DNA from: Flavobacterium sp. 245
Lineage (GTDB): Bacteria; Bacteroidota; Bacteroidia; Flavobacteriales; Flavobacteriaceae
DNA length: 64,000 bases
Assembly: GCF_004362055.1 (NCBI RefSeq)
Contig: NZ_SNXB01000015.1
Location: 1-64,000 of the forward strand
Direction: 5' to 3'
Every line of letters starts with the position of its first letter. Positions within the stretch are counted from its first letter, which is position 1. Of the stretch, positions 2,408-45,065 are shown piece by piece. The translations under genes and the position numbers were made by a program. Below the pieces are notes generated by a model. The model was given only the letters and a program-made list of their open reading frames with translations, made no database searches and was not told the origin of the DNA.

Positions 2408-2424
2408 TGTTTTTTCGATTTTTA

Positions 2425-3177
2425 TCAGAGACTTTTTAGAAGTTCATCAATATCTTTCATGTCTCCACATTGTATATAATAGTTTTCGGCATCCATTTTA
2501 GTGTATTCATTTAAAATGGAATTTTGGGGTAATATATTGTTGTTTGCAATAGCTTGTACTAAATTTTCAGTAGTACAATATCCTGCAATATCATAACTCC
2601 AAGTTTGAGCAAAAGTAATTTCTTCAATGTCTGTTTTTGGTATAACATCAGTGTACATTAATCTTTTGCTTCGGAATATTTTTTTGATGTCTGGATTAAT
2701 TCTTACTAGAATAAAATAATCGTATAAATTCGCTGATCCATTATTGAGATTTGGAAGATACTGCCCATTATTTGACCAATCTTTGGTTTCGAGTAACAAT
2801 AGATTAGATTGTGATGCCGCTGATTTTACATTGATTTTTTTATTGTAAATTTCTAAATCCGCATCATCCCAAATTCCTTCGCCATAGATTCCAAAATCCG
2901 GTTCATTGCAAGCGATAGATTTTGACTTAAAAAAATTATAAAGTACAATTTCGGCTAATTTTCCCTGGAAAATATTGCAAAACTTCTCTCCATTTTTTCT
3001 TCCGTATTGGCCTCCAGTTCTAGTTGATCTATGATGACCAATTCCAAAAGACATTTCGTATGCAAAATCTAGAGCATTTTTTAAATCGGCTTCATTAATT
3101 AAAATCCCTTTAAACGGCTTTTTATTGTTGACAAAATAATAATCGCCATTTGGTCTTTTTTGGTAATCTAATTTCAT
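2425..3177 (-). CDS. Putative restriction endonuclease subunit, PD-(D/E)XK-like
   Basis: No family is recognised with certainty. The 250-residue protein has features of a PD-(D/E)XK nuclease core: a helix with GKLAE near residues 71-75 that could supply an acidic residue, then PDFGIYGEGIWDDADLEIY and a following strand INVKSA, in which Lys follows a hydrophobic strand as in the D-x(n)-(E/D)xK signature, although Asn replaces the usual acidic residue before VK. The start ATG overlaps the end of the upstream 302-residue gene by 4 bases (ATGA), indicating translational coupling. Because it faces a cytosine methyltransferase head-on, a role as a restriction enzyme or one subunit of it is the simplest inference. 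It could also be a specificity or accessory protein. Confidence 0.6.
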   Translation of the reverse strand: MKLDYQKRPNGDYYFVNNKKPFKGILINEADLKNALDFAYEMSFGIGHHRSTRTGGQYGRKNGEKFCNIFQGKLAEIVLYNFFKSKSIACNEPDFGIYGEGIWDDADLEIYNKKINVKSAASQSNLLLLETKDWSNNGQYLPNLNNGSANLYDYFILVRINPDIKKIFRSKRLMYTDVIPKTDIEEITFAQTWSYDIAGYCTTENLVQAIANNNILPQNSILNEYTKMDAENYYIQCGDMKDIDELLKSL

Positions 3178-4082
3178 ATTCTTCTGGTTTCGGCAACTTC
3201 TGCTATAATATTCCAGTTTTCTTTGTACTGTTTTAAGGTGTTTAGATTAATGCTGGTGATTTCATGCTCTTCTAAACTATCAACGTAGTGCATAGGAATC
3301 AGGTAGCAAATACCAATTTCTTTATCAACTGCAACATAAATGTCACAATCTGCAGATGTAATTCTTTTTCCTTTATTTGTTATGTGTGTATGATCAATTC
3401 CTTGTCCGCCTCGATCTCTGTCTTTAAAACTTATAGCATTACTGCTTGAAACTCCTTTAATTTGAAGTCGCAGCAATACATTATTAAAGTCGACTACAGC
3501 GTCATATCTACTGGAGCGAACATCAACATTTGAGCAGTTATATCCTGCTAGAATTGCGCGCGCTAGAAATAAAAATTGTGCACTGTCTCCTGCATTAGCG
3601 GTCATTATTCCGGTATTTATATTTAGAAGATTTGTCGGAAATCCGTTTGAGAAAATAAAATCATACTGTTTTTCTAATATTTTTCTTAAAGATGTTTTTG
3701 CATATCCAAATTGATGCTGACTTGAAACGCTTTTTTGAATAAAATTCAAGGAATTATTTATAAATTCTTCTTTATCGATTTCATTAATCAAATTGCTTTG
3801 CAATGCTTCATCATAAAAAGACTGAAGATCTGATTTTGCGATAAAATATTGATCAGCAATTTCGGTTATTTTGGCTTTTACAAAATTTCTTTCAGAAAAA
3901 TCTTTTATAAGTTGATCGTTAAACTCTTGTTCATTTAATCTTGTAATAAAATAGCCTTTTAAGAAAGTTTTTAAATTGGTTATTGAACCAAATAATGTTA
4001 TTCCTTCCTTATTTAAATTAAAATTAGGTTGGTTTATTTCTTTTATATTTCCTTGAATATAAGTTATTTGGCTGTCAGTCAT
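3174..4082 (-). CDS. Putative restriction endonuclease, intron-endonuclease-like PD-(D/E)XK
   Basis: The C-terminal half has GDSAQFLFLARAILAGYN, then SRYDAVVDFNNVLLRLQIKG, a pattern of helix, strand with Asp, and strand ending in QxK. That matches the group I intron endonuclease-like branch of PD-(D/E)XK nucleases, where Gln can stand in for the acidic residue. The N-terminal 150 residues are helical and not recognised; they may bind DNA. It is the first gene of a two-gene unit and its end overlaps the 250-residue partner by 4 bases. Together with the convergent cytosine methyltransferase this looks like a type II restriction-modification system with two nuclease polypeptides. The alternative is one restriction enzyme plus a DNA-repair nuclease of the Vsr kind, though no Vsr motifs are seen. 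Confidence 0.6.
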   Translation of the reverse strand: MTDSQITYIQGNIKEINQPNFNLNKEGITLFGSITNLKTFLKGYFITRLNEQEFNDQLIKDFSERNFVKAKITEIADQYFIAKSDLQSFYDEALQSNLINEIDKEEFINNSLNFIQKSVSSQHQFGYAKTSLRKILEKQYDFIFSNGFPTNLLNINTGIMTANAGDSAQFLFLARAILAGYNCSNVDVRSSRYDAVVDFNNVLLRLQIKGVSSSNAISFKDRDRGGQGIDHTHITNKGKRITSADCDIYVAVDKEIGICYLIPMHYVDSLEEHEITSINLNTLKQYKENWNIIAEVAETRRI

Positions 4083-4272: not shown

Positions 4273-5022
4273 TTATCCCTGATTGAGAATAGAAATCAAA
4301 TTTTCTCTAATTCCCGTTTTTAAATCTATAACTTCAAATCTCTTTGTTGACGAAAATGAACCAACATCGCTGTCACTATTAATTAAAATCCCCCCAACCA
4401 AAATAATGTACTTACAATTATACTTTGTAGCGGCAATAAGTTCCTGAATACGATTATCTATAGCTTCGTAAATTATTTCTGTTGCTTCATGTAGAGGAAT
4501 TTCGGCATTTAAAATCTTATCTTTTTGATTATAAAGAATTTGTTCAATTGTATTCATTTGATAATCAAGCTCAGTTATATTATCAGGTTTTATGCTATTT
4601 TCTCTTAAGTTGTTTAATGCCACTGTTGCAGCTCCACAGCAAATAGAATTGTTATTTTGCCCAAATCTATTTATTTTGCCAATAATCCCTTCCTTCGAAA
4701 TGCCAATATGAGGCCCATAATATATAAACACCGCACCATCATCAGGTACATGACTCGCAAAAGCAGCCATGCCACTTAGTCCAGTAAATGGAAATCCGTC
4801 TAATCCTCCCATTTTAAAAGGCCCTAAAAACTCCAGAGCTCTTACTGGATATTGAATACTGTTTACATCATCACTGCAAATACTGTCGGCTAATATTATT
4901 TGAGAAGGTTCTAAATCTAATTTCTCTTCTACATAATCAATGATTTTATTTATGTAATCTATTGTAGTTAAAGCGTTAGGATAGTGTTTTCGAACAATTT
5001 GCAGTTTTTCTCTTTTTTTCAT
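4273..5022 (-). CDS. LCIB/LCIC-type beta-carbonic anhydrase-like protein
   Basis: The protein has the signature of the family of limiting-CO2-inducible proteins B/C, a divergent beta-carbonic anhydrase fold: ADSICSDDVN with Cys49 and Asp51, GPFKMGGLDGFPFTG, AFASHVPDDG with His91, YYGPHIGIS, and ICCGAA with Cys128/129. Cys49, His91 and one of the two later Cys residues are candidate zinc ligands. Carbonic anhydrases interconvert CO2 and bicarbonate in the cytoplasm; some LCIB relatives are active and others are not. It reads away from the urease locus, whose product is CO2 plus ammonia, so a functional link is tempting but inferred. No signal peptide is present. The family call rests on several clustered motifs and is fairly firm; activity is not proven. 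Confidence 0.75.
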   Translation of the reverse strand: MKKREKLQIVRKHYPNALTTIDYINKIIDYVEEKLDLEPSQIILADSICSDDVNSIQYPVRALEFLGPFKMGGLDGFPFTGLSGMAAFASHVPDDGAVFIYYGPHIGISKEGIIGKINRFGQNNNSICCGAATVALNNLRENSIKPDNITELDYQMNTIEQILYNQKDKILNAEIPLHEATEIIYEAIDNRIQELIAATKYNCKYIILVGGILINSDSDVGSFSSTKRFEVIDLKTGIRENLISILNQG

Positions 5023-5233
5023 TTATCGAAAAATTAATAAAGTATTTTTTATGAAGGTACGACTTTCTTGTTTTTTAATAAACCCGTTTTTGGGCAAAGG
5101 TTATTACAAAAAAATCAATTAACAGCGAAAATTACAGAAAAGGAATACAAATGGAGTGATTTGTGCAAACGATCAAGTTGGCTTGTTATGTAATTTTGCT
5201 TCATAAGTTTTCAGAAAGAAGGCTTTTTACAGA

Positions 5234-5617
5234 ATGAAACGTTTAGTGTATATCTTAACTTGTTTTTTAACGTTGGTGTTTTTTGCGAAAGCGGAAAGCA
5301 AACCAAAGTCAATTATACACTTTGATCAGTATCAGTTTCAAAGCAAAGATTTATCTATATCTCAAAATGATTTGTCAATTGCTCTTATTGATGCTAATGA
5401 TGATTTCTATGTTGAAAATAATGATGAGGCTGATTTTGGAAAAAATGGTTTTGACCAATATGCTTTTCTGAATTTCGGAGAAGTGATTTTTTCTAATCTA
5501 AACTATCACTCATTTAAACCAGTTGTGTATGGGCAGGACTTTGCTCCATTTTTACATACACCAACTATTCCCCTTTATATTTTATTTCATTCCATGATTA
5601 TTCCTTTTTCGAATTAA
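5234..5617 (+). CDS. Small secreted protein of unknown function
   Basis: This 127-residue protein begins with MKRLVYILTCFLTLVFFAKA, a convincing Sec signal peptide with a likely cleavage after AKA. The mature part is acidic in its centre (DANDDFYVENNDEADFG) and ends with a hydrophobic stretch, PTIPLYILFHSMIIPF, that could anchor it or form a beta strand. No family is recognised. It lies 180 bases upstream of ureA in the same orientation, so it could be a first, separately regulated gene of the urease locus, perhaps a metal-binding periplasmic protein given its Asp/Glu and scattered His, but nothing in the sequence proves this. Confidence 0.6.
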   Translation: MKRLVYILTCFLTLVFFAKAESKPKSIIHFDQYQFQSKDLSISQNDLSIALIDANDDFYVENNDEADFGKNGFDQYAFLNFGEVIFSNLNYHSFKPVVYGQDFAPFLHTPTIPLYILFHSMIIPFSN

Positions 5618-5735
5618 ATCGGGAATTTTAGTTATTGCTTCTTTACAGAAATTTTCAATTTTATAAGGGTCCTTGTGCTCTTTTGAATTCCTTTCACGCA
5701 CTTAAACTCCATTATTTTTTCAATGCTAATATAAA

Positions 5736-5764
5736 TTGGTATTGATCGTGGATTTCTATTTTTC
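5736..5764 (+). promoter_or_regulatory. Candidate promoter of the urease operon
   Basis: A TTG at 5736-5738 and TATTTTTC at 5757-5764 (one mismatch to TAnnTTTG) are separated by 18 bases, the spacing expected for a Bacteroidota sigma-A promoter. Transcription would begin near 5770, leaving a leader of about 28 bases before ureA. Confidence 0.4.
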
Positions 5765-5797
5765 AAAAATTGTTAAACATTTTAAATTCAAAACACT

Positions 5798-6100
5798 ATG
5801 CATCTTACACCAAGAGAAAGTGAGAAATTGCTATTGCATCTTGCCGGCGAATTAGCCGCTAAAAGAAAGGCCAGAGGCCTGAAACTTAATTACCCTGAAA
5901 CGATTGCATACATCAGCAATCATTTACTTGAAGCTGCTCGTGATGGAAAGTCGGTTGCAGAATTAATGAATTACGGCGCCACTCTTTTGACTAGAGAGGA
6001 TGTGATGGATGGTATCGCCGAAATGATTCATGATATTCAAATCGAAGCAACTTTTCCTGACGGTACTAAATTAGTTACAGTTCACAGTCCTATTCGTTAA
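5798..6100 (+). CDS. ureA: Urease gamma subunit
   Basis: UreA is the smallest of the three structural subunits of urease, which hydrolyses urea to ammonia and carbamate in the cytoplasm. The start [20 protein letters not shown], the central [11 protein letters not shown] and AIAYIS-like segment, and [37 protein letters not shown] are textbook UreA. At 100 residues it is full length and not fused to UreB, as is usual outside Helicobacter. It heads the operon ureABC-EFGD, with 18 bases to ureB. Confidence 0.98.
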
Positions 6101-6118
6101 ATCAAAAAAACATTATTT

Positions 6119-6487
6119 ATGATTCCAGGAGAATATATTATCAGCAAAGGAGACATTGATTGCAATGTTGGCCGTAAAACAGAAAAAGTAAAAGTGACCA
6201 ATACAGGAGATCGTCCAATTCAAGTTGGATCTCATTGCCATTTTTTTGAGATCAACCGTATGATGAGTTTTGATCGCGGTTTGGCTTTTGGTATGAGACT
6301 TAATATTGCAGCTGGTACTGCTGTTCGTTTTGAACCAGGCGAAGAAAAAGAGGTTGACTTGGTTGCATTTAGTGGTGCAAGACGCGCATTTGGTATCAAC
6401 AATATTGTTAATGGTGATACTACACTTGAAATTAACAAACAACACAGTTTAGCAAAATTGCAATCAGAAAACTTTAAAAACAAATAG
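6119..6487 (+). CDS. ureB: Urease beta subunit
   Basis: UreB packs with UreA and UreC in the (alpha beta gamma)3 urease. The start [13 protein letters not shown], the segment [19 protein letters not shown], and the run [27 protein letters not shown] are diagnostic. The 122 residues are full length, with a normal tail. It lies 18 bases after ureA and 2 bases before ureC, so the three structural genes are almost certainly co-transcribed. Confidence 0.98.
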
Positions 6488-6489
6488 TC

Positions 6490-8211
6490 ATGAGCTTGAA
6501 AATAAATAAGCTGAAATATGCAAGCATGTATGGTCCTACTAAAGGAGATAAAGTGAGATTGGCCGATACAGATATAATTATTGAGATAGAAAAAGATTTT
6601 ACCGTCTATGGTGATGAAAATAAATTTGGAGGAGGAAAGACTATTCGTGACGGAATGGCTCAATCTAGTACATCCACTCGTGATCAAGGAGTTTTAGATC
6701 TTGTAATTACTAATGCTACTATCATTGATCACTGGGGAATTGTAAAAGCAGACATTGGTATTAAAGACGGCAAGATTGCGGGTATTGGTAAAGCAGGCAA
6801 TCCTGATACAATGGATGGTGTTGATCCAAATATGATTATTGGTGCCAGTACAGAAGCGCATGGTGGAGAAAATTTGATCGTTACTGCCGGAGGAATCGAT
6901 ACGCATATTCACTTTATCAGTCCACAACAAATTGAAACTGCTTTATATAGTGGTGTGACTACAATGATTGGTGGTGGTACAGGACCTGCTGATGGTACAA
7001 ATGCAACAACTATTACTCCAGGTAAATGGTATATTGAAAAAATGTTGCAAGCAGCAGAAGCATTCCCAATGAATCTTGGATTTTTTGGTAAAGGAAATTG
7101 TTCCACCGAAGCACCATTAGATGAGCAGATTGAAGCTGGTGCTTTAGGTTTAAAAATTCACGAAGATTGGGGTGCTTCTCCTGCAGTAATTGATGCATCG
7201 TTGAGAGTTGCTGATAAATATGATGTACAAGTTGCAATTCACACAGATACGCTTAACGAAGCTGGTTTTCTTGAAGATACTATGAATGCGATCAATGGTC
7301 GTGTAATTCACACTTTCCACACAGAAGGTGCAGGTGGTGGTCACGCGCCAGATATTATCAAAGCTGCAATGTATCCAAATGTATTGCCTGCATCAACAAA
7401 TCCTACTCGTCCTTACACTGTTAATACAATCGATGAGCACTTAGATATGTTGATGGTATGTCATCACTTAAGTAAAAATATTCCGGAAGATGTTTCATTT
7501 GCTGATTCTCGTATCCGTCCTGAAACAATTGCAGCCGAAGATATTCTGCATGATATGGGAGTTTTCAGTATCATGAGTTCTGATTCACAAGCAATGGGAC
7601 GTGTTGGTGAAGTTATTACTCGTACTTGGCAAACTGCTGATAAAATGAGAAAACAGCGTGGTGATTTAGCAGAAGATAAAGGAAATGAAAATGACAATTT
7701 CCGTGCAAAACGTTATGTGGCTAAATACACTATCAATCCAGCAATTGCCCACGGTATTTCTCAATATGTAGGATCTATCGAGGTAGGAAAAATGGCTGAT
7801 CTTGTATTATGGAAACCAATGCTTTTTGGTGTAAAACCAGAATTAATTGTTAAAGGAGGTATGATCATCGCAGCACGTATGGGAGATCCAAATGCTTCGA
7901 TTCCAACACCACAGCCTGTTCTTTATCGCAATATGTTTGGTGCTTTTGGTAAAGCATTATCTAAAACGTGTGCAACGTTTGTTTCTCAGGCTTCTCTAAA
8001 AAACAATATTGTAGCCGAATATGGTTTAGAAAAAATGGTATTGCCGGTAGTTGGCTGTAGAAATATCTCAAAGAAAAACTTGATTCATAATGATAAAACA
8101 CCTGAAATCACGGTAAACGCAGAAAATTACGAAGTACGTGTTGATGGAGAAAAAATAATTTGTGAGCCAGCCGAGAATCTTCCAATGGCACAACGTTATT
8201 TCTTATTCTAA
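6490..8211 (+). CDS. ureC: Urease alpha (catalytic) subunit
   Basis: UreC carries the dinuclear nickel site. All expected residues are visible: His139 and His141 (THIHF), the carbamylated Lys222 ([10 protein letters not shown]), His251 (AIHTDTLNE), His277 ([15 protein letters not shown]), His325/326 of the mobile flap (VCHHLS) and Asp365 ([11 protein letters not shown]). Length (573 residues) is normal and the protein ends in MAQRYFLF, as bacterial ureases do. It follows ureB by 2 bases. The Cys usually found on the flap is here VCHH. The set predicts an active enzyme provided the accessory genes downstream load nickel. Confidence 0.99.
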
Positions 8212-8230
8212 AGGATAAAAAAAATTGAAC

Positions 8231-8300
8231 CGGGAGTAATTCGGTGAAAAATCAGAAGAAGGGCTGCGGGATAGATCTGCAGTCACTTCTCTCTGATTAA
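8231..8300 (+). ncRNA. Candidate structured RNA in the ureC-ureE spacer
   Basis: The 178-base gap between ureC and ureE is the longest inside the operon. It can fold into a long hairpin: AATCAG (8249-8254) with CTGATT (8292-8297), GAAG (8257-8260) with CTTC (8285-8288), and CTGC (8263-8266) with GCAG (8278-8281). It is not followed by a T-run, so it is not a simple terminator. The 5' part, GGGAG...TTCGGTGAAAAATC, resembles the GGGA-GGTGAAAATC core of cobalamin riboswitches, but the CCCGC-ACTGT segment that should follow is not clear. It may be a processing or stabilising element, or a metal/cofactor-sensing RNA. Confidence 0.35.
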
Positions 8301-8389
8301 GATTCCAAAATTAAGTGAAGTAAAAAAGAGAACAAGAAAATGATGGATGCAGAAGCGTATAAATATTTTGAGATTTAAAAGAAAAAGAT

Positions 8390-8887
8390 ATGATTATAAA
8401 TGAAGTAGCTGGAAGTCTTAAGCAATTTGATGTAGGAAACCGCACCATAGACTTTCTTGAAATCGAATGGTTTGAAGCAACAAAACGCATTCAAAGAAAA
8501 AAAACTAAAAATGGACAAGAGCTTGCTATTAAATTTTTGAAAGAAGGACAAAGGTTAAAACAAGATGATGTTTTATATGAAGATGATCAAAAAGTAATAG
8601 TAGTTGCTATTATTCCTTGTGATGCTATTGTAGTAAGACCTAAGTCGTTACTTGAAATGGGAAGTGTTTGTTATGAAATTGGGAATAAGCATCTTCCTAT
8701 GTTTATTCAAGATGATGAAGTATTGCTTCCTTTTGAAGAGCCCATTTTTAAATGGCTTTCAGCAAGTGGTTACGAGACAGATAAAATATTTACCCGTTTG
8801 ATCAATATTGTAAACGCAACAGTACAGCCTCATGGATCTTCAGAAAGCAGTTCGCTCTTCTTTAAAATTATGAATATTGCGAAGTAG
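8390..8887 (+). CDS. ureE: Urease accessory nickel chaperone UreE
   Basis: UreE dimerises and hands Ni(II) to the UreG-UreD-UreF complex. The N-terminal peptide-binding domain (residues 1-70, RKKTKNGQELAIKF... LKQDDVLYED) and the metal-binding domain with IGNKHLPMFI, which supplies the conserved interfacial His, are present. The tail lacks the His-rich extension of Klebsiella UreE, having only a single PHGSSES. Length (165 residues) is typical. It follows ureC after an unusual structured gap and precedes ureF by 40 bases. Confidence 0.95.
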   Translation: MIINEVAGSLKQFDVGNRTIDFLEIEWFEATKRIQRKKTKNGQELAIKFLKEGQRLKQDDVLYEDDQKVIVVAIIPCDAIVVRPKSLLEMGSVCYEIGNKHLPMFIQDDEVLLPFEEPIFKWLSASGYETDKIFTRLINIVNATVQPHGSSESSSLFFKIMNIAK

Positions 8888-8927
8888 TGCCGTCTTGCAT
8901 TATAAATAAAGAAACACAGATAATACG

Positions 8928-9614
8928 ATGAAAAATTTTATAGGCAGTTTGTTGCATTTGAGTGATCCCACGTTGCCAATTGGCGGTTATACACATTCTA
9001 ACGGATTAGAAACTTACGTACAGCAACAGTTGGTAAAAGATCCAGAAACAGCATCATTGTTTGTGCGCAACATGCTTACTAACAACCTTCAGTATAATGA
9101 TGGTGCTTTTGTAAAACTGGCATATGAAGCCACACAAAATAATGATATTACTGCTTTACTGCAATTGGATGAAGAGTGCAGTGCGCTAAAAACAGCCAGA
9201 GAAATAAGAGAAGGAAGCCAAAAATTAGGCTTAAGACTGATAAAGATATTCAAGCGCCAAATCAGCGAAGATCCTATTAACGCTTATGAAAAAGCGATTT
9301 TAGAGAAAAAGATAGAAGGACATTATTGTATTGTTTTTGGCATTTATGCTTGCTTATTAAATATTCCGCTTCCTGAAGTTCTTCTTGCATTTTTATATAA
9401 TGCTACGGTGGGTACTGTTACTAACGCGGTAAAACTTGTTCCGCTGGGACAGCTTGACGGACAGGATATTTTGCATGATATGCAGGAAGTTATCGAAACC
9501 ATTACGCAAAATATACTTCAGCTTGATCGTAATCATGTTGGTCTGTGCAATATTGGTCTGGATGTGAGATGCATGCAACACGAACGATTGTATTCAAGAT
9601 TGTACATGTCTTAA
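8928..9614 (+). CDS. ureF: Urease accessory protein UreF
   Basis: UreF acts with UreD and UreG in the nickel insertion complex, gating GTP hydrolysis. It is all-helical; the recognisable pieces are LLHLSDPTLPIGGYTHSNGLETYV at the N terminus, and the later helix LYNATVGTVTNAVKLVPLGQLDGQ. The 228-residue length is normal. It lies between ureE and ureG, with an 81-base AT-rich gap to ureG. Confidence 0.96.
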   Translation: MKNFIGSLLHLSDPTLPIGGYTHSNGLETYVQQQLVKDPETASLFVRNMLTNNLQYNDGAFVKLAYEATQNNDITALLQLDEECSALKTAREIREGSQKLGLRLIKIFKRQISEDPINAYEKAILEKKIEGHYCIVFGIYACLLNIPLPEVLLAFLYNATVGTVTNAVKLVPLGQLDGQDILHDMQEVIETITQNILQLDRNHVGLCNIGLDVRCMQHERLYSRLYMS

Positions 9615-9695
9615 ATAAGTCGAAAGTTGTAAAGTCAAAAGAGCCAAAATAAATTTAAAAATTTAGGCTAAAAAATAATTAAAAAATAAAACAAA

Positions 9696-10334
9696 ATGAA
9701 AGAGAGAAGTTATGTTAAAATCGGAATAGCTGGTCCGGTAGGTTCAGGAAAAACAGCCTTAATTGAGCGTTTGTCTCGCACATTAATGAACGAATACAGC
9801 ATTGGTGTAATTACGAATGATATTTATACAAAAGAAGACGCTGAGTTCCTTACTAAAAATAGTATGCTTCCTAAAGAACGTATCATCGGCGTTGAAACGG
9901 GAGGATGCCCTCACACTGCAATTCGCGAAGACGCGAGTATGAATCTTGAAGCAGTTGAAGAGATGGCTTCTCGTTTTCCGGATATTGAATTTATTTTGAT
10001 TGAAAGCGGTGGAGATAATTTATCGGCCACTTTTAGCCCTGACTTGGCAGACGTGAGCATATTTGTTATTGATGTTGCCGAAGGAGATAAAATTCCACGT
10101 AAAGGAGGTCCAGGAATTACGAGGTCAGATTTGCTTGTAATCAATAAAATAGATTTGGCACCTTATGTAAACGCAGATCTTGGAGTTATGGAACGCGATG
10201 CAAGAAAAATGCGTAACGGTCAGCCATTTGTATTTACAAATCTTATGAGTCTTCAAGGTCTAGACGCAGTTATTGGCTGGATTAAGAAATATGCATTGCT
10301 TGAAAATGCTGAAGAGCCTGAGTTGGTCAGATAA
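9696..10334 (+). CDS. ureG: Urease accessory GTPase UreG
   Basis: UreG is the SIMIBI GTPase that powers nickel delivery to apo-urease. The P-loop is GPVGSGKT (residues 12-19), followed by [13 protein letters not shown], the metal-binding CPH in [20 protein letters not shown] in the Walker B region, and the base-recognition NKID. At 212 residues it is full length. Its Cys-Pro-His motif binds nickel together with UreE. It precedes ureD by 33 bases. Confidence 0.98.
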
Positions 10335-10367
10335 TCAAACTTATTTTACAACATTCAATTTCATTAC

Positions 10368-11201
10368 ATGATTAATAGATTAAATATTGTCAGTGGATTT
10401 AAAGACGGACGTTCTTATTTAAAAGACAACTTCTTTACAAGACCTTTCAGAATTGCAAATATTAATGAAGACAGGTCAGATCCTTCCTTATATCTTATGC
10501 TAATGAGTTCCTCTCCGGGAATTCTGGATAATGACCATTATGATATAAATATTGAAGTTGAGTCAGAAAGTCGTTTGCAACTTCAATCTCAATCTTATCA
10601 ACGGTTGTTTAATATGAAAAATGGTGCTCAGCAACAAATGAAAGTTTCATTGAGCAACGAAAGCACATTCAGTTATATACAGCATCCAATCGTTCCGCAT
10701 GAGCAATCGATTTTTAAAGCGCATAACGTAATTGCTTTACAAGGAAATTGCAGTTTGACACTTGGAGAAATTATTACCTGTGGACGAAAACATTCAGGAG
10801 AAGTTTTTCTTTTTTCAAAATTTCAAAACCTTACAGAAGTATTTCATAACGGAAAATTGATTTTAAAAGACAATGTGTTGTTGCAACCACTTTTAGCCGA
10901 TATCGAAACTTTAGGTCAAATGGAAGGGTTCACACATCAAGCTACATTAATTCATATTAATACTGGAATTCAAGATATGAAATCTCTTATTGAAGATACT
11001 TTTACTCTTCTTCAATCACAAGAAAATGTGGCGTATGGCGTTTCACAGCCTTTTGCAAATGGAATGATCGTGCGTATGCTGGGCAACGGAGGAGAACAAT
11101 TGTATAATGCATTTCGTCAGATAGAAGACAAACTTTGGAATATGGAAAAACAAGTAAAAGTCGAAAATCAGATAATTGAATCTGTTGAAAATTATAACTA
11201 A
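10368..11201 (+). CDS. ureD: Urease accessory protein UreD
   Basis: UreD is the scaffold of the UreD-F-G complex that docks on apo-urease; it is named UreH in Helicobacter. The N-terminal segment SYLKDNFFTRPFRIANI and the central FSYIQHPIVPHEQSIFKA and CGRKHSGEVFLF match the family. At 277 residues it is full length. Its TAA overlaps the next ATG by one base (TAATG), so the permease that follows is probably coupled to it. Confidence 0.93.
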   Translation: MINRLNIVSGFKDGRSYLKDNFFTRPFRIANINEDRSDPSLYLMLMSSSPGILDNDHYDINIEVESESRLQLQSQSYQRLFNMKNGAQQQMKVSLSNESTFSYIQHPIVPHEQSIFKAHNVIALQGNCSLTLGEIITCGRKHSGEVFLFSKFQNLTEVFHNGKLILKDNVLLQPLLADIETLGQMEGFTHQATLIHINTGIQDMKSLIEDTFTLLQSQENVAYGVSQPFANGMIVRMLGNGGEQLYNAFRQIEDKLWNMEKQVKVENQIIESVENYN

Positions 11202-11902
11202 TGGATACTACAATAACAACACTAGTATTATCAGCCATCACAATCAGCTGTTTGCATACTGCTTCGGGACCAGATCATTATTTGCCTTTTATAGTATTAT
11301 CAAGATCTAAAAAATGGCCCATAACCAAAACAATTTGGTGGACAATAGTCTGTGGTCTCGGACATATATTAAGTTCTGTAATTCTGGGATTGATTGGGGT
11401 TTTGGTAGGTTGGCAATTATCAAAATTGTCTATGTTTCAGGATATCAGAGGAAATGTTTCGGGTTGGTGTTTACTGGTTTTCGGATTCATCTATCTTATT
11501 TGGGGACTCCGAAGTGCTTACTTAAATAAACCTCACAAACATTTTGAAATGTACAGCGATGAAGATATGTATGTTTATGAACATAAACACGGAGAAGTTG
11601 TGGCACCTCAAAACCGTATTAAAATTACTCCATGGGTTTTGTTTGTCATTTTTGTAATGGGACCAAGTGAGCCTCTAGTTCCTCTATTATTTTACTCTGG
11701 AGTACGACGTTCTTCCTTAGAAGTTATCATCTTAATTACTGTTTTTGCAGTATTTACAGTTCTTACCATGCTTACAATGGTTTTGATTGGCTGTTATGGC
11801 TATTCATTTTTTAAAACAGACAAACTAGAACGTTATGTTCATGCCATTGGTGGTGGTGTGGTTACCATTTGTGGTATCGGAATGGTGTTTCTAGGTTGGT
11901 AA
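11201..11902 (+). CDS. UreH/NiCoT-like membrane permease, predicted nickel transporter
   Basis: The protein is predicted to be an inner-membrane nickel permease related to Bacillus UreH and the RcnA/NiCoT group. It has about six membrane helices in 233 residues. The first helix carries CLHTASGPDHYLPF, a His-x(6)-DH pattern in the position where NiCoT proteins bind metal. A hydrophilic loop (about residues 110-140) rich in His, Tyr and Glu (KPHKHFEMYSDEDMYVYEHKHGE) could bind metal on the cytoplasmic side. Position directly after ureD, with overlapping stop and start, fits nickel supply to urease. A TauE/SafE-like exporter is the alternative family assignment. Confidence 0.8.
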   Translation: MDTTITTLVLSAITISCLHTASGPDHYLPFIVLSRSKKWPITKTIWWTIVCGLGHILSSVILGLIGVLVGWQLSKLSMFQDIRGNVSGWCLLVFGFIYLIWGLRSAYLNKPHKHFEMYSDEDMYVYEHKHGEVVAPQNRIKITPWVLFVIFVMGPSEPLVPLLFYSGVRRSSLEVIILITVFAVFTVLTMLTMVLIGCYGYSFFKTDKLERYVHAIGGGVVTICGIGMVFLGW

Positions 11903-11913
11903 AAACAAAAATT

Positions 11914-12774
11914 ATGGAATCAAAAATTAGTCTTTATATTAAAACAATTTTGACCAGTATTGGTCAAATTATGCTCCAGGAAAACCCTTGGACAGGTTTA
12001 CTTTTTCTGGCAGGAATATTTTATGGATCGCCTGTTATGGGCATTGCGGCACTTTTATCCGCAGTTGTCGGATTGTTCACTGCTGAACTATTAAAATTTG
12101 ATAAAACAGAAATAGCACAAGGGCTTTATGGATTTAGTGCTACACTAGTGGGAGTTGCCTTAACATTCTTTTTTAAACCTGAACCTGTAATATGGATTGC
12201 TGTAATTGTTGGGTCAGCATTGGCAACTATTGTTCAAAATATTTTTATTCGTTATAAAATACCAGCATTTACACTGCCATTTATCCTTGTTACCTGGATT
12301 TGTCTTTTTGTTTTTCATAATCTATTTGTAATAGGAAGTCCTGCAATGGGTGCAGAAACTGCCGCTGATACAAATGAGCTGGTAACGGTTGCACACAGTT
12401 TTGGAGAAGTGATTTTTCAGGGAAGCGTTCTTACAGGAGTTATATTTATTTTGGCCGTTTTCATTAATAGCCCAGTTGCTGCTTTGTATGCAATTGCTGC
12501 TGGAGTTATTAGTACTTATTTATCATTACAGTTTTCTGAACCTCAAACCGATGTACACATGGGATTGTTTAGCTTTAATGCTGTGCTTTGTGCGATAACT
12601 TTTTCAGGAACTCGTGTTAAAGACGGGATTTATGTTTTTCTCTCAGTTGTTTTATCGACTCTATTCGATATTTATATGGTAAAAATGGGATGGCCTGCAC
12701 TTACTTTTCCTTTTGTACTTGCAAGCTGGATCACTATTCTAGTCAAAAAGATTGTTCCTAAACAATACCAATAA
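11914..12774 (+). CDS. Urea transporter (UT/SLC14 family)
   Basis: The product is a passive urea channel of the inner membrane. Both halves of the inverted-repeat fold are visible, each with the UT signature of an x-P-x-x-T-x-P-F helix start: IPAFTLPFILVTW and WPALTFPFVLASW. The N-terminal MLQENPWTGLLFLAG and the GLYGFSATLVGVAL segments, with the matching GLFSFNAVLCAI in the second half, are also characteristic. The start was placed at 11914 (MESKISLYIK), 11 bases after the previous stop; an in-frame ATG at 11869 lies inside the preceding gene. The length of 286 residues is typical of bacterial family members. Urea would enter here to reach the cytoplasmic urease. Confidence 0.93.
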   Translation: MESKISLYIKTILTSIGQIMLQENPWTGLLFLAGIFYGSPVMGIAALLSAVVGLFTAELLKFDKTEIAQGLYGFSATLVGVALTFFFKPEPVIWIAVIVGSALATIVQNIFIRYKIPAFTLPFILVTWICLFVFHNLFVIGSPAMGAETAADTNELVTVAHSFGEVIFQGSVLTGVIFILAVFINSPVAALYAIAAGVISTYLSLQFSEPQTDVHMGLFSFNAVLCAITFSGTRVKDGIYVFLSVVLSTLFDIYMVKMGWPALTFPFVLASWITILVKKIVPKQYQ

Positions 12775-12807
12775 TTACAAATTTCCTCATTAAATAATTA
12801 AATCAAA

Positions 12808-14070
12808 ATGAAAAAATACGCCTTATTAAGCGCATTGTTTTTTGCAATGTGCTACTCAACCTATGCTCAGGTTTCATTCGAATCTAAAGCACAAACATCT
12901 GATAAACCGTTATATGAAATGGAATTTTCGCCTCGCTTGAAATTGAATGGATATGTGAATCTTGGAGGAAATGATAGCAAGACATCACAATCATTAAACT
13001 TAAACTCTGCAAATCCGTACAATCCTTTCAAAGATAAAAATGCAGATGCTAATATGTATCAAACGCAATTGGCATGGAAAACGACTTATAACGGATTTGA
13101 AAAAGGTCCTTTAGTTACTTATGTTGAAGGACAATGGTGGGGCGGACCTGGAGCTGGAGGTAATTTACAGTTAAGAGTAGCTTATGTAGATTATAATCAC
13201 TGGCACGTTGGTCAGGATTGGAGTTTCTTTGGAGGAGGTGTGCCAACTTGGTGCAATACTTTAGATTGGGAAGGTCCAAATTCTGGAACTTGGGCGAGAC
13301 ATTTACAAGCTAAATATTATACTAATTTCGGAAAGGACAAATTATGGAAATTTGAAGGAGGAATAGAAACTACTGCTCAATATTTAAAAGTAGCAGGCGG
13401 AAGTATGCCAGGTCAATTTTCTGTTGATCCGATTTTTGCTTTTACTAAATATGCACAAGATGGAAGTTTTGCTCGTTTGGCATTCATGGGACGCAGTATT
13501 CGTTATACCAAAGAAGATGCTTCTAACACTCTGGCAATGGGTTGGGGAATAAATGCTAACCTAAAAAGTAAGCTGAACGATAAAAGCTATTTCTTGGCAC
13601 AAGGACTTGTAGGATCTGGTATTGCAGGTTCGTATACATTGTCAGGAGCTTTATTTGGTAATGGCGGTGCTACAAATATGTATGACGGAATTTATGATCA
13701 AAACGGCAATTTCAAAACGGTTCCAGTTTATGGAGGTTCTGCTGGTATTGAATATTTCTTCGGTCCAAAAAAGAATTTACACTCCAATCTAGTATTAGGA
13801 TATACCAACATGTCTTATAATGCTTCGCCACTTTCATTGGTACAAAGTAAAGTAATCAATGACAATGCTACAGGAGATTTTGTGACCAAAAATAATGAAG
13901 CAACAACTCATACGGCTTTAACTTTTGGATCAATAAACATGCTTTATGATGTGACAAAAATCACTACTATGGGAATTGAATATGACGCAGGAACCAAACA
14001 AATTACAAATTCAATTTCACAAAGTTCAATGGTAAATCGTGTGGCTTTAGGTTTAAAAGTTGGATTCTAA
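12808..14070 (+). CDS. DcaP-like outer-membrane porin
   Basis: The protein carries a Sec signal (MKKYALLSALFFAMCYSTYAQ) and a beta-barrel-like body with alternating aromatic residues, ending in VALGLKVGF with the terminal Phe typical of outer-membrane proteins. The segment NLQLRVAYVDYNHWHVGQDWSFF followed by DWEGPNSGTWARH matches the DcaP-family region in which a GQTW-like motif precedes the barrel constriction. DcaP porins pass small organic acids. The place in a urease operon suggests urea or another nitrogen compound, which is inference. It starts 33 bases after the urea transporter. Confidence 0.75.
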   Translation: MKKYALLSALFFAMCYSTYAQVSFESKAQTSDKPLYEMEFSPRLKLNGYVNLGGNDSKTSQSLNLNSANPYNPFKDKNADANMYQTQLAWKTTYNGFEKGPLVTYVEGQWWGGPGAGGNLQLRVAYVDYNHWHVGQDWSFFGGGVPTWCNTLDWEGPNSGTWARHLQAKYYTNFGKDKLWKFEGGIETTAQYLKVAGGSMPGQFSVDPIFAFTKYAQDGSFARLAFMGRSIRYTKEDASNTLAMGWGINANLKSKLNDKSYFLAQGLVGSGIAGSYTLSGALFGNGGATNMYDGIYDQNGNFKTVPVYGGSAGIEYFFGPKKNLHSNLVLGYTNMSYNASPLSLVQSKVINDNATGDFVTKNNEATTHTALTFGSINMLYDVTKITTMGIEYDAGTKQITNSISQSSMVNRVALGLKVGF

Positions 14071-14102
14071 TATCATAAAAAATCAAAATTATTTTTATTA
14101 AA

Positions 14103-16352
14103 ATGAATAAGCATACGAGAGAACAAATGAAGCGAGCTTTCATTTTTATAATATTATTTTTAATTACCTCTACATCGCTTTTTGCGCAGAAAACAATAAG
14201 TGGTATTGTGACAGATGAAGATGGATTGCCGTTAGTAAATGCAACTATTATTAACAAAGATAAAACTTGCCATTCTGCTACAAAAGTAAATGGCAGTTTT
14301 GCAATAAGTTTGAAACAGATTCCTGATACATTAACGGTTTCTTACGCTGGATTTAAGCCACAATCTTATTCCGTATTTCAGAATTCACCTTTAAACCTTG
14401 TATTGATGTCTCATATTAGTACATTAAATGAGGTGGTCATAAAATCAAAAAAAATTGACAAGCAATTAATAAAAATTGATTTAGACAAAACTCCTGTAAA
14501 TACGGCGCAAGATTTACTCCGCAAAGTTCCTGGGCTTTTTATTGCACAGCATGCAGGTGGCGGAAAAGCAGAGCAAATATTTCTTCGCGGTTTCGATAAT
14601 GATCACGGCACTGACATTGCTATAAATGCCGACGATATGCCGGTCAATATGCCGTCGCACGCGCATGGTCAGGGATATTCTGATTTACATTTTTTAATTC
14701 CGGAAACCGTTCAGAATATTGATTTCGGAAAAGGTTCTTATTATGCTGATAAAGGAGATTTCAATACCTCTGGTTATGTTGATTTTCATACTTATGATTC
14801 GATAAGTTCAAGTTACATTAAAACCGAAATAGGAAATTACAACACGGCACGCATAATGGGAATGGCCAATTTGTTAAAAGGCAATTCGCAAAAACAAAAT
14901 GCCTATCTGGCCGGAGAATATAATTATACCGATGGGCCGTTTGATGTCAAACAAGATTTCAAAAGATTAAATTTATTCGGAAAGTACAATCAGAAAATTG
15001 GAGATAAAGGACAATTGAAATTTGAAGCTTCTTGTTTTAGTTCGGGTTGGAATGCCTCTGGGCAAATTCCGGAAAGAGCTGTTTCTGAAGGTATGGTTTC
15101 CAGATTTGGGTCAATTGATCCCACTGAAGGAGGAAATACGCATCGCGTAAATGTTTTGGCGAGTTATATTTATAAGCCAAGCGAAACCGAGACTTTTAAA
15201 ACCTCTTTCTATTACATCAATTATCTGTTTAACTTATATTCAAATTTTACTTTTTATTTGGTGCATCCAGACAAAGGAGATGAAATAAACCAATATGATA
15301 ATCGTGAAGTTTACGGAACAAATAATACCTATACAAATCATTTTACGTTTGATCGATTTCACTTAAACTTAGTTTCAGGATTTGGAGGCCGTTTTGATGA
15401 TATTCATGATTTGGCGTTGAGTTATGTTACAGCTAGATATACGTTGAATGAGCGTATGGCATGGGGATCAGCCAAAGAAGCTAACGCTAATGCCTACTTT
15501 TCAGCAGATTTAAGTACGGGTAAATGGAGGTTGAATGCTGGCTTGCGAGCCGATTGGTTCTATTTTTATTATTTCGATAAGATGCAACCAGATCTTGCTT
15601 CATCTTCTTACAATAAAGCTCGCATCAGTCCAAAATTGAGTGTTTTTTATAATGCTTCAGATGCAGTAACACTATATCTGAAATCTGGATTAGGATTTCA
15701 TTCGAATGATGTGCGCGATGTAGTATTGCAGGACGGAAAAAACATACTCCCTTATTCTGCTGGCGTAGACCTGGGCTGTGTGCTGAAACCTGCAAAAGGA
15801 TTGATTTTACAGCCAATAGTTTGGAATACTTATTTAAATAGTGAATTTGTCTGGAATGGCGATAGTTATGGAGTCAGTGATGCAGGAGCGACCAGAAGAT
15901 ATGGAGCAGATTTTTCAATGCGTTATCAAGTACTTCCGTTTCTTTATCTTGACAGTGATTTAAACTGGGCTGTACCGCGTGTAGTAAGTGCACCTAAAGG
16001 AAATAATTATGTAGAATTGGCACCTACTTTTACGAGTACTGGTGGAATAGGATTGCAATTTCAAAATGGGTTTTATTCTAATTTGCGTTATCGCTACATG
16101 CATAATCGTCCAGCAAATCAAGATGGCAGTATTATGGCACAAGGCTATTTTGTTAATGACTTTATCTCAGGATATCAGGCAAAAAAATGGGGTGTAAATG
16201 TACAAATACAAAACCTTTTTAATACAAAATGGAACGAAGCCATGTTTGCGCAAGAAACAAGGTTGAAAGGAGAAACAAACAGAGTAGAGGAATTGACTTT
16301 TACACCAGGAACTCCATTTTTATTAAAAATTGGGTTGGCGTATAAGTTTTAA
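14103..16352 (+). CDS. TonB-dependent receptor, putative nickel/metal uptake
   Basis: The protein would move a large or scarce ligand across the outer membrane using TonB energy. It has a signal peptide (ending LFAQ), a carboxypeptidase-like regulatory beta-domain (ISGIVTDEDGLPLVNATI, about residues 33-110), a plug (AQDLLRKVPGLFIAQH to about 240), and a barrel ending LLKIGLAYKF. The plug holds the unusual His-rich run MPSHAHGQGYSDLHFLIPE, which may recognise a metal. It is the last gene of the urease locus before a strong terminator, so nickel or a nickel chelate is the likely cargo; that is inference. MKRAFIF at 14127 is an equally possible start. Confidence 0.85.
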   Translation: MNKHTREQMKRAFIFIILFLITSTSLFAQKTISGIVTDEDGLPLVNATIINKDKTCHSATKVNGSFAISLKQIPDTLTVSYAGFKPQSYSVFQNSPLNLVLMSHISTLNEVVIKSKKIDKQLIKIDLDKTPVNTAQDLLRKVPGLFIAQHAGGGKAEQIFLRGFDNDHGTDIAINADDMPVNMPSHAHGQGYSDLHFLIPETVQNIDFGKGSYYADKGDFNTSGYVDFHTYDSISSSYIKTEIGNYNTARIMGMANLLKGNSQKQNAYLAGEYNYTDGPFDVKQDFKRLNLFGKYNQKIGDKGQLKFEASCFSSGWNASGQIPERAVSEGMVSRFGSIDPTEGGNTHRVNVLASYIYKPSETETFKTSFYYINYLFNLYSNFTFYLVHPDKGDEINQYDNREVYGTNNTYTNHFTFDRFHLNLVSGFGGRFDDIHDLALSYVTARYTLNERMAWGSAKEANANAYFSADLSTGKWRLNAGLRADWFYFYYFDKMQPDLASSSYNKARISPKLSVFYNASDAVTLYLKSGLGFHSNDVRDVVLQDGKNILPYSAGVDLGCVLKPAKGLILQPIVWNTYLNSEFVWNGDSYGVSDAGATRRYGADFSMRYQVLPFLYLDSDLNWAVPRVVSAPKGNNYVELAPTFTSTGGIGLQFQNGFYSNLRYRYMHNRPANQDGSIMAQGYFVNDFISGYQAKKWGVNVQIQNLFNTKWNEAMFAQETRLKGETNRVEELTFTPGTPFLLKIGLAYKF

Positions 16353-16375
16353 ACTCTGTAGATAATTAAGTAGAA

Positions 16376-16420
16376 AAGGAATTTAGCTCCGAATAAAATC
16401 AGAGTTAAATTCCTTTTTTT
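16376..16420 (+). terminator. Rho-independent terminator of the urease locus
   Basis: AAGGAATTTAGCTC and GAGTTAAATTCCTT form a stem of about 13 pairs with one mismatch, followed by seven T. It lies 24 bases after the TonB receptor stop and before the convergent regulator, ending the long urease transcript. Its reverse reading has a weaker T-run, so it may also serve the regulator. Confidence 0.85.
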
Positions 16421-16434
16421 ATAAATAGATGAAA

Positions 16435-17319
16435 TTATTTGTTTAATACTTGTAAACGAAAAGCAGAAGGAGATTGGTTCGTTACTTTTTTAAAGACTCT
16501 CGAAAAATGAGAAAGCGAATGAAAATTAAGTTCATAAGCCACATCTGCAATTTCACGCCCTAAATCGCGAAGCAACACTTGGCTGTGTTGAACACAGATT
16601 TCATTAATCCATTGTTTAGGAGGTTTTCCGGTTGCTTTTTTGATGCATTTATTTAAGTATGTTTCAGATATGTTCAATTCCTGCGCATAAAAGAATACAT
16701 TTTTATGCAGTTTATGTTCTTGCTGTAACTTCTCTCTAAATTTATAAGTTATATCCAATTCTCGACCCATTAATAAAGGTTTATGAGTAGCTTGCTTAAT
16801 AATTTTCAGCATAATCGCGCGAAAAAAAGTAGAACAGATATCTTCCTGAATACATTCTGAATTTAATTCTGTTTCCAGCAATTCAAAAATCTTAACCATG
16901 GAATCATAAATTTTCTCATGAATTTTTATTACAGGATCTGATGTGAGAAATATAATGTCTTGTCGGCTTAAAGAAATAGAATTGATGACATCATTTTCAT
17001 AAATGAGGTAAAAGCCTTTAATGTTTTCAGATAATTCATGAGTTCGGGTAATACTACCTTGTTTGATGTTTAAAATTTGTCCAGCCCCAATAAGATAATT
17101 TTCAGTTTCGACCTGTTGTTTTATATAACCTTCTGTTACAAACAGCATAAAATTAAAAGAAGTTCGGTAGGGTGGTACCGGAATAACAATTTCTTTTAGA
17201 TAGTTTTCTATTCTATATAACTGCAATTGCGATTTATTGTGTAAAGCTATGCTGTTTACTTGTGGTAAAAACTGCTCCTTATATTGATAAGTACTGAAAA
17301 TTTGAATAGAGTTGTCCAT
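16435..17319 (-). CDS. AraC-family transcriptional regulator
   Basis: The 294-residue protein has a C-terminal AraC/XylS double helix-turn-helix (about residues 195-290): AQELNISETYLNKCIKKATGKPPKQWI, then IADVAYELNFHSLSHFSRVFKKVTNQSPSAFR. The N-terminal half looks like a cupin-like sensory domain (TEGYIKQQVETENYLIGAGQIL). No signal peptide is present. It is convergent with the urease locus and separated by a terminator, so it may regulate urease, nickel or nitrogen genes, but there is no visible operator to prove this. Confidence 0.88.
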   Translation of the reverse strand: MDNSIQIFSTYQYKEQFLPQVNSIALHNKSQLQLYRIENYLKEIVIPVPPYRTSFNFMLFVTEGYIKQQVETENYLIGAGQILNIKQGSITRTHELSENIKGFYLIYENDVINSISLSRQDIIFLTSDPVIKIHEKIYDSMVKIFELLETELNSECIQEDICSTFFRAIMLKIIKQATHKPLLMGRELDITYKFREKLQQEHKLHKNVFFYAQELNISETYLNKCIKKATGKPPKQWINEICVQHSQVLLRDLGREIADVAYELNFHSLSHFSRVFKKVTNQSPSAFRLQVLNK

Positions 17320-17390
17320 TTATTCGTGTTGTAATCTTATACGACTCTTTTCTTGAAAAATAAATTCCCTTTTTTAAAATAGCTATAAAC

Positions 17391-17427: not shown

Positions 17428-17462
17428 TATATTTTTGAAGTTTCTTCTGAAACTTATACTGG

Positions 17463-17547
17463 CGGAGAAAGAGGGATTCGAACCCCCGGACCTGTTACAG
17501 TCAACAGTTTTCAAGACTGCCGCATTCGACCGCTCTGCCATTTCTCC
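17463..17547 (-). tRNA. tRNA-Ser (anticodon UGA), copy 1
   Basis: The minus strand reads GGAGAAATGGCAGAGCGGTC at the 5' end, with a long variable arm typical of tRNA-Ser. The anticodon loop is CTTGAAA, so the anticodon is TGA. The T-arm GGTTCGAATCC and acceptor end TTTCTCC match, and discriminator G is at 17463; CCA is not encoded. It is identical to the copy at 24698-24782, and about 40 bases of upstream flank are also shared, so the whole gene with promoter was duplicated. Confidence 0.95.
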
Positions 17548-17649
17548 AGTATGTTGCTCTCATTATCTGATTGCGAGTGCAAATATAAGACGCTTTTTCG
17601 GTTCTCAAAATTTTTTTGGAACTATTTACAAAGAAAATAATATGTTATT

Positions 17650-24641: not shown

Positions 24642-24697
24642 ACCGCTCTTTTTGGCCTTTTTTGAAAACTTTGAAAAGTCTCTTTTTTAGCCTTCAG

Positions 24698-24782
24698 CGG
24701 AGAAAGAGGGATTCGAACCCCCGGACCTGTTACAGTCAACAGTTTTCAAGACTGCCGCATTCGACCGCTCTGCCATTTCTCC
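24698..24782 (-). tRNA. tRNA-Ser (anticodon UGA), copy 2
   Basis: It is identical over 85 bases to the tRNA at 17463-17547, with the same anticodon TGA, a long variable arm, and no encoded CCA. About 40 bases of the upstream (promoter) side are also identical, up to GAGTGCAAATATA. The 3' end is the presumed integration target of the elements to its left. Confidence 0.95.
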
Positions 24783-24921
24783 AGTATGTTGCTCTCATTA
24801 TCTGATTGCGAGTGCAAATATAGTACGCTTTTCTGATTATAAAAACTTTTTTGGCGATTTTTTTAACTTAATTTTCAAGTATCTAATTATCAGTATTTCC
24901 GAAAAGTATTTTTTTGAAAAT

Positions 24922-44964: not shown

Positions 44965-45065
44965 TCGAGATCCCTAGCCCTGATGGGAGCGACATCCTTT
45001 TGCGCCGGTCCCGATAGCTATCGGGAGGCACAAAAGATATAGCGGACAGCAAGAATCAGCTCCTA
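44965..45065. repeat. Dispersed flavobacterial repeat, full copy
   Basis: AGCCCTGATGGGAGCGACAT opens the unit. CTTTTGCGCC and GGCACAAAAG form the inner arms, with CCCGATAGCTATCGGG as a perfect palindrome in the centre, and ATAGCGGACAGC then AGCTCCTA end it. Partial copies are at the window start and at 56571-56655. It can form a long compound hairpin. Confidence 0.7.

Follow-up and report, generated by a model that had tools for sequence, protein, structure and literature searches.

A urease locus of Flavobacterium sp. 245 that probably provides for urea and nickel entry across both membranes

Introduction

The urease super-locus of Flavobacterium sp. 245 is a real, ordered arrangement of genes that is common to two bacterial families, and it probably constitutes a self-contained operon for the use of urea nitrogen, with entry routes for urea and for nickel across both membranes. 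It lies within the 64,000-nucleotide (nt) stretch analysed here (positions 1 to 64,000 of contig NZ_SNXB01000015.1, termed ‘the window’), where ureABC and ureEFGD are followed, all on the forward strand, by genes for a UreH-like permease, a UT-family urea channel, a porin of the DcaP fold and a TonB-dependent receptor, and then by a probable terminator. In the scheme proposed, an AraC-family protein would probably activate the operon in the presence of urea; the DcaP-fold porin would admit urea (or a related small solute) across the outer membrane, and the UT channel would pass urea across the inner one; nickel, free or chelated, would cross the outer membrane through the histidine-rich TonB receptor and reach the cytoplasm through the UreH-like permease; and UreE, UreF, UreG and UreD would insert it into UreABC, which would yield ammonia. 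Gene order, gene families, conserved linkage and clade structure are read directly from the sequence, whereas the cargos of the porin, receptor and permease, together with the regulation, are predictions. Nickel entry through the outer membrane is, to our knowledge, poorly known outside Helicobacter. The locus draws attention to a single receptor family, with invariant plug histidines, that has ties to urease as well as [NiFe] hydrogenase genes; two unrelated porin types are found at loci with urease, UT and TonB-receptor genes; and the open reading frame (ORF) at the head of the locus ends in a candidate regulatory-ORF motif. A literature search returned no paper on this locus type among the matches listed, most subscription journals being outside its reach.

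Gene organization and extent of the locus

The urease set is complete, as profile searches against Pfam and NCBIfam recovered three subunits and four accessory proteins: ureA (gamma subunit, 5798–6100; TIGR00193, 182 bits), ureB (beta subunit, 6119–6487; TIGR00192, 157 bits), ureC (alpha subunit, which holds the nickel active site, 6490–8211; TIGR01792, 980 bits), ureE (8390–8887; PF02814 and PF05194, with NF009754 at 206.8 bits), ureF (8928–9614; PF01730), ureG (9696–10334; PF02492) and ureD, called ureH in some species (10368–11201; PF01774). The first-pass annotation of this DNA had described a single-direction run of genes with short gaps and an overlap between ureD and the permease gene, and the ORF calls and a check of the sequence bear out its order, direction and coordinates. 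The gaps measure 18 nt (ureA–ureB), 2 nt (ureB–ureC), 178 nt (ureC–ureE), 40 nt (ureE–ureF), 81 nt (ureF–ureG) and 33 nt (ureG–ureD), and further downstream 11 nt (permease to UT gene, with the UT ATG at 11914), 33 nt (UT to porin) and 32 nt (porin to receptor); all thus fall between 2 and 81 nt except that between ureC and ureE, and the ureD–permease overlap is a single base (TAATG, 11199–11203). The cluster resembles cbi/utp-ureABCEFGD of Actinobacillus pleuropneumoniae, in which urease and accessory genes, a urea channel and a metal transporter also lie together, and differs from it in the addition of a porin, a TonB receptor, an AraC-family gene and an exported-type head ORF.

The first-pass annotation had also placed all these genes between one promoter and one terminator, of which the downstream end is the part that stands. 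At 16374–16420 a long stem with a T run behind it, recognised by folding, forms a probable intrinsic terminator between the receptor gene and the convergent AraC-family gene, and a simple terminator scan of the window did not list it. The promoter proposed at 5736 (TTG-N18-TATTTTTC), a weak candidate in the 180-nt stretch between the head ORF and ureA (5618–5797, forward), is not supported, as its motif is too common and its TTG is absent from the two related loci L090 and L158. The window has about 1.2 motifs of this type per kb and strand, and the Flavobacterium-type promoter motif, scanned for with what we take to be its consensus, was discarded as evidence for a start at 5736 because it is too frequent. 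A simple sigma-70 scan of the window was uninformative (51 sites against 64.5 expected).

Two further genes, neither of them named in the first-pass annotation, count as parts of the urease unit by DNA comparison: the head ORF, orf127 (5234–5617, forward), and the AraC-family gene (16435–17319, reverse). Both are taken in because the DNA similarity between the window and its relatives spans them, running unbroken from 5128 to 17321 against L090, and in pieces from 5128 to 17336 against L158, from which the receptor is missing. Since the similarity to L090 is continuous over this whole distance, the arrangement is not a chance one. The left border is blurred, as a gene on the opposite strand (4273–5022) is also common to L090 and L158.

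The TonB-dependent receptor

The receptor gene (14103–16352, forward) encodes a plug domain (PF07715, 44.1 bits) and a CarboxypepD_reg domain (PF13715), and its product aligns with full-length relatives. For the receptors of the urease clade described below, comparative evidence lends fair support to the first-pass assignment of nickel, or a nickel chelate, as the likely cargo. His150, His168, His188, His196 and His533 are present in 85/85 sequences compared, the first four forming the plug set, and His186 is present in 81 of them. A midpoint-rooted FastTree phylogeny of these 85 sequences places the urease-locus receptors of Flavobacterium and Taibaiella in one clade (support 1.0), the 14 tips of which represent 12 distinct loci, two having been entered twice. 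Elsewhere, a second receptor copy in G283 is the final gene of a hypA-hypB-hypC-hypE run, with hydrogenase small and large subunit genes adjoining it on the opposite strand (the HypA and HypB/HypE domain families were named by Pfam, HypC and the hydrogenase subunits by eye). In another bacterial family, locus L261 carries ureEFGD, UreH and UT genes together with a further member of the receptor family; its porin, of the Porin_O_P type (PF07396, E 9.7e-20), is unrelated to that of the window, and the locus also encodes a 162-residue, histidine-rich, exported-type protein. Receptor loci outside the urease set were 71 in number (31 from the top of family and genus lists, all 36 class-level hits other than the window itself, and four others), and HupE_UreJ_2-like neighbours were found at 10 of these, namely L140, L143 and eight class-level loci recognised by BLAST to L140 (the assignment was confirmed by Pfam for L140, L268 and L285). 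With L155 and L261 counted, a nickel-type context is present at 12 of the 71. HupE is named a known nickel permease in the literature (PMC12537917). The nickel reading thus gains from the urease clade, the hyp/hydrogenase linkage, the urease genes of L261, the HupE/UreJ neighbours and the invariant plug histidines.

A precedent in function is the nickel import of Helicobacter pylori, where the TonB-dependent FrpB4 and the permease NixA provide an outer and an inner step that feed urease and hydrogenase. The present receptor gene differs in lying inside the urease operon, and its proposed likeness to FrpB4 is one of role.

The porin

The porin gene (12808–14070, forward) had been labelled ‘DcaP-like’, which the fold of its predicted structure confirms. 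An AlphaFold2 model made from a 30-sequence alignment has 16 strands at moderate confidence (predicted local distance difference test score, pLDDT, 68), and a fold search of the PDB ranked DcaP first (6eus_A, E 2.7e-15, template-modelling (TM) scores 0.61/0.72), the next match being at 4.7e-8. By sequence, the porin had no Pfam or NCBIfam match at E 0.01 and none in a plasmid collection, and a phmmer search of PDB sequences up to E 10 gave two unrelated hits and no porin, hence no solved DcaP chain. It shares the 16-stranded fold of Acinetobacter DcaP, its best structural match (PDB 6eus; PMC12338516), but differs from it in being linked to urease and in having a sequence that matches no solved porin.

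Relatives of the porin numbered 77 in a pattern-based scan that took one genome from each of 84,980 species: six are 70–87% identical to it, 70 are no more than 33% identical, and one is 43% identical over a stretch of only 53 residues. All six close relatives (at least 70% identity) sit in urease loci, as do the window, G283 and G250, so that 9/9 distinct close loci are urease loci (L160 and L161 are the same as G268 and G322); at two of the nine, L158 and G250, there is no receptor. On the DNA examined around the 71 distant relatives no ureC-like ORF was found, 17 of those loci being shorter than 10 kb. Linkage thus says that the porin subfamily serves urease. The first-pass proposal that the porin passes urea draws on this same linkage; it is plausible, and about evenly balanced against other cargos. 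FmdC of Methylophilus methylotrophus, an outer-membrane porin dedicated to urea and short amides, offers a parallel in role.

The inner-membrane permease and urea channel

The UT-family channel (11914–12774, forward) is predicted to conduct urea across the inner membrane, matching PF03253 (E 3.8e-72; 243.4 bits against a cut-off of 25) over residues 9–278 of 286; it scored below the cut-off of the NCBIfam model TIGR03441 (Yut), at 199 against 275 bits. The adjoining permease (11201–11902, forward) is a putative inner-membrane route for nickel. It had been called ‘UreH/NiCoT-like’, which is plausible on the strength of an H..(S)GPDH motif in the first helix that is kept in 19/19 permease homologues from urease loci; His/Asp motifs of this H..(S)GPDH type are tied to nickel. 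On the other side, the permease stayed below the cut-off of every Pfam and NCBIfam model, with sub-threshold matches to PF13386 and PF14897 in Pfam and none in NCBIfam. Its structure model (pLDDT 59) is too poor to weigh in either direction. UreH genes that adjoin nickel enzymes have been described, in a paper whose main text, as far as it was available, does not contain the words TonB or outer membrane (PMC2667541).

Distribution and transfer of the locus

Genes for ureC were found in 29 of 199 Flavobacterium genomes. Strong porin relatives (>600 bits) occur in 5/199, adjoining ureC in all five, and the receptor family, at a threshold of E 1e-100, has members in 66/199, with ureC at most about 7.5 kb away in nine. 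Across the 29 urease loci, window counted, the head ORF is present at 19, the UT gene at 21, the UreH-like gene at 19, the AraC-family gene at 18 and a gene for a triple-RidA protein at nine; presence counts are lower bounds where a stretch ends at a contig border (e.g. L096 and L113).

Outside the Flavobacterium family, Taibaiella soli (Chitinophagaceae) has the same order of genes: orf127, ureA, ureC, ureEFGD, permease, UT, porin, receptor and convergent AraC. Its ureB is masked by an overlapping ORF in the annotation, and DNA similarity covers it; this similarity extends from ureA through the AraC gene, with orf127 recognisable only at the protein level. Identity to the window is 75% for the porin, 69% for the receptor and 65% for the AraC-family protein, and reaches 93% for UreC, as compared with 94–97% for two, 72–82% for 23 and 62–63% for three of the 28 other Flavobacterium loci. 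A transfer of the cassette between the family of Flavobacterium and the Chitinophagaceae is likely on these comparisons, and it would not be recent, because the guanine-plus-cytosine content of the T. soli cassette (44%) is close to that of its flanks (43–44%).

The triple-RidA (PF01042) protein mentioned above is encoded at L091, L094, L095, L099, L100, L102, L103, L105 and L107, its gene lying between the UT and porin genes in L094 and L095, and no ORF of the window matches it.

Alternative explanations for the outer-membrane pair

Several observations weigh against the view that the porin and the receptor bring in urea and nickel. Urea is small enough to pass general porins. Among the distant porin relatives, 16/71 precede an asparaginase-like gene, most of these loci also having aspartase- and transporter-like genes, and others precede a multihaem cytochrome-like gene (all by eye). 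DcaP-family porins of Acinetobacter serve carboxylic acids, the known cargo of the fold (PMC12338516). For the receptor, no nickel gene was recognised on the DNA examined at 59 of the 71 loci that were not chosen for urease, and many family members (among L127–L153 and L255–L291) come after a DUF4331-TPR(-HupE) operon. Furthermore, an Ang-1 domain fused to HupE/UreJ-2 binds copper (dissociation constant 74 nM) more tightly than nickel (220 nM), as given in the available text of PMC12537917, so partners of this kind are able to bind copper. The carboxylate function of DcaP, the asparaginase-linked relatives, the copper binding and the scarcity of nickel genes favour a reading in which the cargos are others: a carboxylate or a nickel–organic-acid complex, in place of urea, for the porin, and for the receptor a metallophore or one of the metals copper, zinc and cobalt. 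Set against them are the urease-linked receptor clade, the hyp/hydrogenase and second-urease linkages outside that clade, and the 9/9 urease linkage of the close porin relatives; other cargos are accordingly held to be a good deal less probable than urea and nickel entry. As a separate observation, a pair of ECF sigma/anti-sigma-like genes stands near many of the DUF4331-TPR-linked receptors (L127–L153, L255–L291).

The distribution within Flavobacterium also tells against urea and nickel entry. Only five of the 29 urease loci hold the porin and nine the receptor, with both at four, so that the porin is missing from 24/29 and the receptor from 20/29; the outer-membrane pair, as a module, varies from locus to locus. 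A stop interrupts the porin gene of G250 (L091:10556–11821), which no receptor follows, and this locus is apparently losing its outer-membrane part. It might be argued from these absences, and from the broken copy, that the two genes are passengers, kept by descent or joint transfer and playing no part in the use of urea or nickel. That explanation is rated improbable, given that the genes run in one direction with short gaps, that porin and receptor have been retained jointly across two bacterial families, and that the L261 urease locus pairs an unrelated porin with a receptor of the same family.

The AraC-family regulator

The AraC-family protein (16435–17319, reverse) contains a helix-turn-helix domain (PF12833, 74.9 bits), and homologues 38–81% identical to it are encoded on the examined DNA of 18/29 Flavobacterium urease loci, window counted. 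It is probably the regulator of urease. An AraC-family gene adjoining urease genes recalls UreR of Proteus and Providencia, a urea-responsive activator of that family; the likeness is one of family and position, and a urea response of the present protein is predicted by analogy.

The head ORF orf127

The element of the locus that is most novel is orf127 (5234–5617, forward), which encodes a 127-residue exported-type product with the C-terminal tail IPLYILFHSMIIP near its stop codon. Conservation is found chiefly at its start and in its tail (‘PxYILFHSLxIP’). Tail-bearing ORFs precede ureA by 23–504 nt in 19 of the 29 Flavobacterium urease loci, all 19 of which have a UT gene, and others are present at L158, L159, L162 and L163 and in T. 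soli; as members were picked by position and tail, the presence of the tail is partly built in. L091 has two copies, one before ureA and the other before the triple-RidA gene. A link of orf127 to nickel in preference to urea was rejected, since its occurrence follows that of the UT gene (19/19 loci; Fisher 1e-5, uncorrected for relatedness) more closely than that of the UreH-like permease gene (15/19, p 0.05).

In 8/8 pairs the ratio of non-synonymous (dN) to synonymous (dS) substitution rates is below 1 over the whole ORF, and the last 20 codons have a lower dN than the body in 8/8 pairs, the smallest contrast being that of L100 and L105 (0.14, against 0.20 for the body). Between the window and L090, body dN amounts to 0.49, against 0.17 for the start and 0.10 for the last 20 codons. 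For the same pair dS falls from 0.95 in the body to 0.21 in the tail, and therefore some of the constraint on the tail may act on DNA or RNA. The tail is codon-diverse over 15 ORFs (Ser as TCC, TCT, TCA, AGT and AGC; Leu as TTA, CTT, CTA and CTG). In 101 genus genomes, a model of the tail gave eight matches below E 1e-10, all at urease loci and all rows of the model itself, and a weaker match in G225 (E 3.7e-4) with an internal stop; 57 of the 101 had some match up to E 1, which was taken as noise. Among 295 class-level genomes, the window alone matched at E 0.001. As no new member was found in either set, the tail as the mark of a wider family was set aside.

With a conserved extreme C-terminus, a variable exported-type body and a position upstream of a candidate regulated gene, orf127 has the general sequence character of an arrest ORF. 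This suggests by analogy a nascent-chain regulatory ORF comparable to CruR of Bordetella pertussis, which senses copper through relief of stalling at a C-terminal RAPP, as set out in the accessible part of PMC9426467. According to the same partial source, CruR (145 residues, against 127 for orf127) is likewise an exported-type ORF with a conserved C-terminal motif ahead of a TonB-transporter operon, and the gap that follows it is 162 nt, against 180 nt after orf127 (PMC9426467). Unlike CruR, orf127 has no DUF2946, CXXC or RAPP, its tail being PxYILFHSLxIP, and it is followed by ureA; it is not a member of the CruR group. Neither orf127 nor the Taibaiella ORF matched a Pfam family, and so neither matched DUF2946, and the window ORF contains neither a CXXC nor a RAPP motif.

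Two accounts of orf127 have to be weighed. It may, more tentatively, be a new nascent-chain sensor, the tail of which would stall the ribosome in response to urea, nickel or export state and so set the expression of import and urease genes. The somewhat more probable account is that of an ordinary small envelope protein with a structural role and no function as a regulatory head ORF. The purifying selection over the whole ORF speaks for an envelope protein, as do the missing CXXC and RAPP, the stalling reading being one by analogy, and the lower synonymous rate of the tail, to which constraint on DNA or RNA may contribute. The envelope-protein account is less easily squared with a body that changes fast beside a conserved extreme C-terminus, or with the position before ureA and the second copy of L091 before the triple-RidA gene.

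Small exported-type ORFs also stand directly before receptors of the same family as that of the window at L129, L136, L257, L261, L272, L274, L276, L285, L286 and L289; several are rich in His, and many end close to a PPP, as in PPPR or PPPK. They come from a listing of ORFs with PP near the end or at least eight His, which covered 14/79 receptor loci and in which L270 is probably a chance frame. These ORFs may be analogues of orf127, or metal-sensing head ORFs. Clusters of upstream ORFs with C-terminal proline, restricted to Bacteroidota and lying ahead of sec genes, are reported in the available portion of PMC10987492.

The ureC–ureE gap

The longest gap of the operon holds a conserved 8-bp hairpin (8262–8284, forward) that the first-pass annotation did not mention, with 40/40 cells paired over five sequences and two pairs changed on both sides; its covariation score was attained by 12 of 500 shuffles, and slid versions were far worse. 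In L099, L100, L102, L103, L105 and L107 the gap that holds the hairpin in the group of the window is occupied by a small barrel-like gene of exported type (195–245 residues, by eye), the products of which had no Pfam match at any of these six Flavobacterium loci. An Rfam match to 5_ureB_sRNA (6641–6940, reverse, 98.7 bits) was rejected as an RNA gene candidate, since it lies inside ureC on the opposite strand and probably reflects conserved coding sequence.

Other features of the window

Downstream of the urease locus, about 7 kb of DNA lie between the two copies of a 158-nt direct repeat (17462–17619 and 24697–24854; 95% identity), in which a tRNA-Ser(TGA) gene is included; this looks like a tRNA-bounded insertion or duplication. 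Upstream, a gene resembling a DNA cytosine methyltransferase (1442–2407, forward) stands beside two opposite-strand genes (within 1442–4082) that could be its restriction partners, all by eye. Two matches to the Flavo-1 RNA above the gathering score lie at 44972–45060 and 56572–56649.

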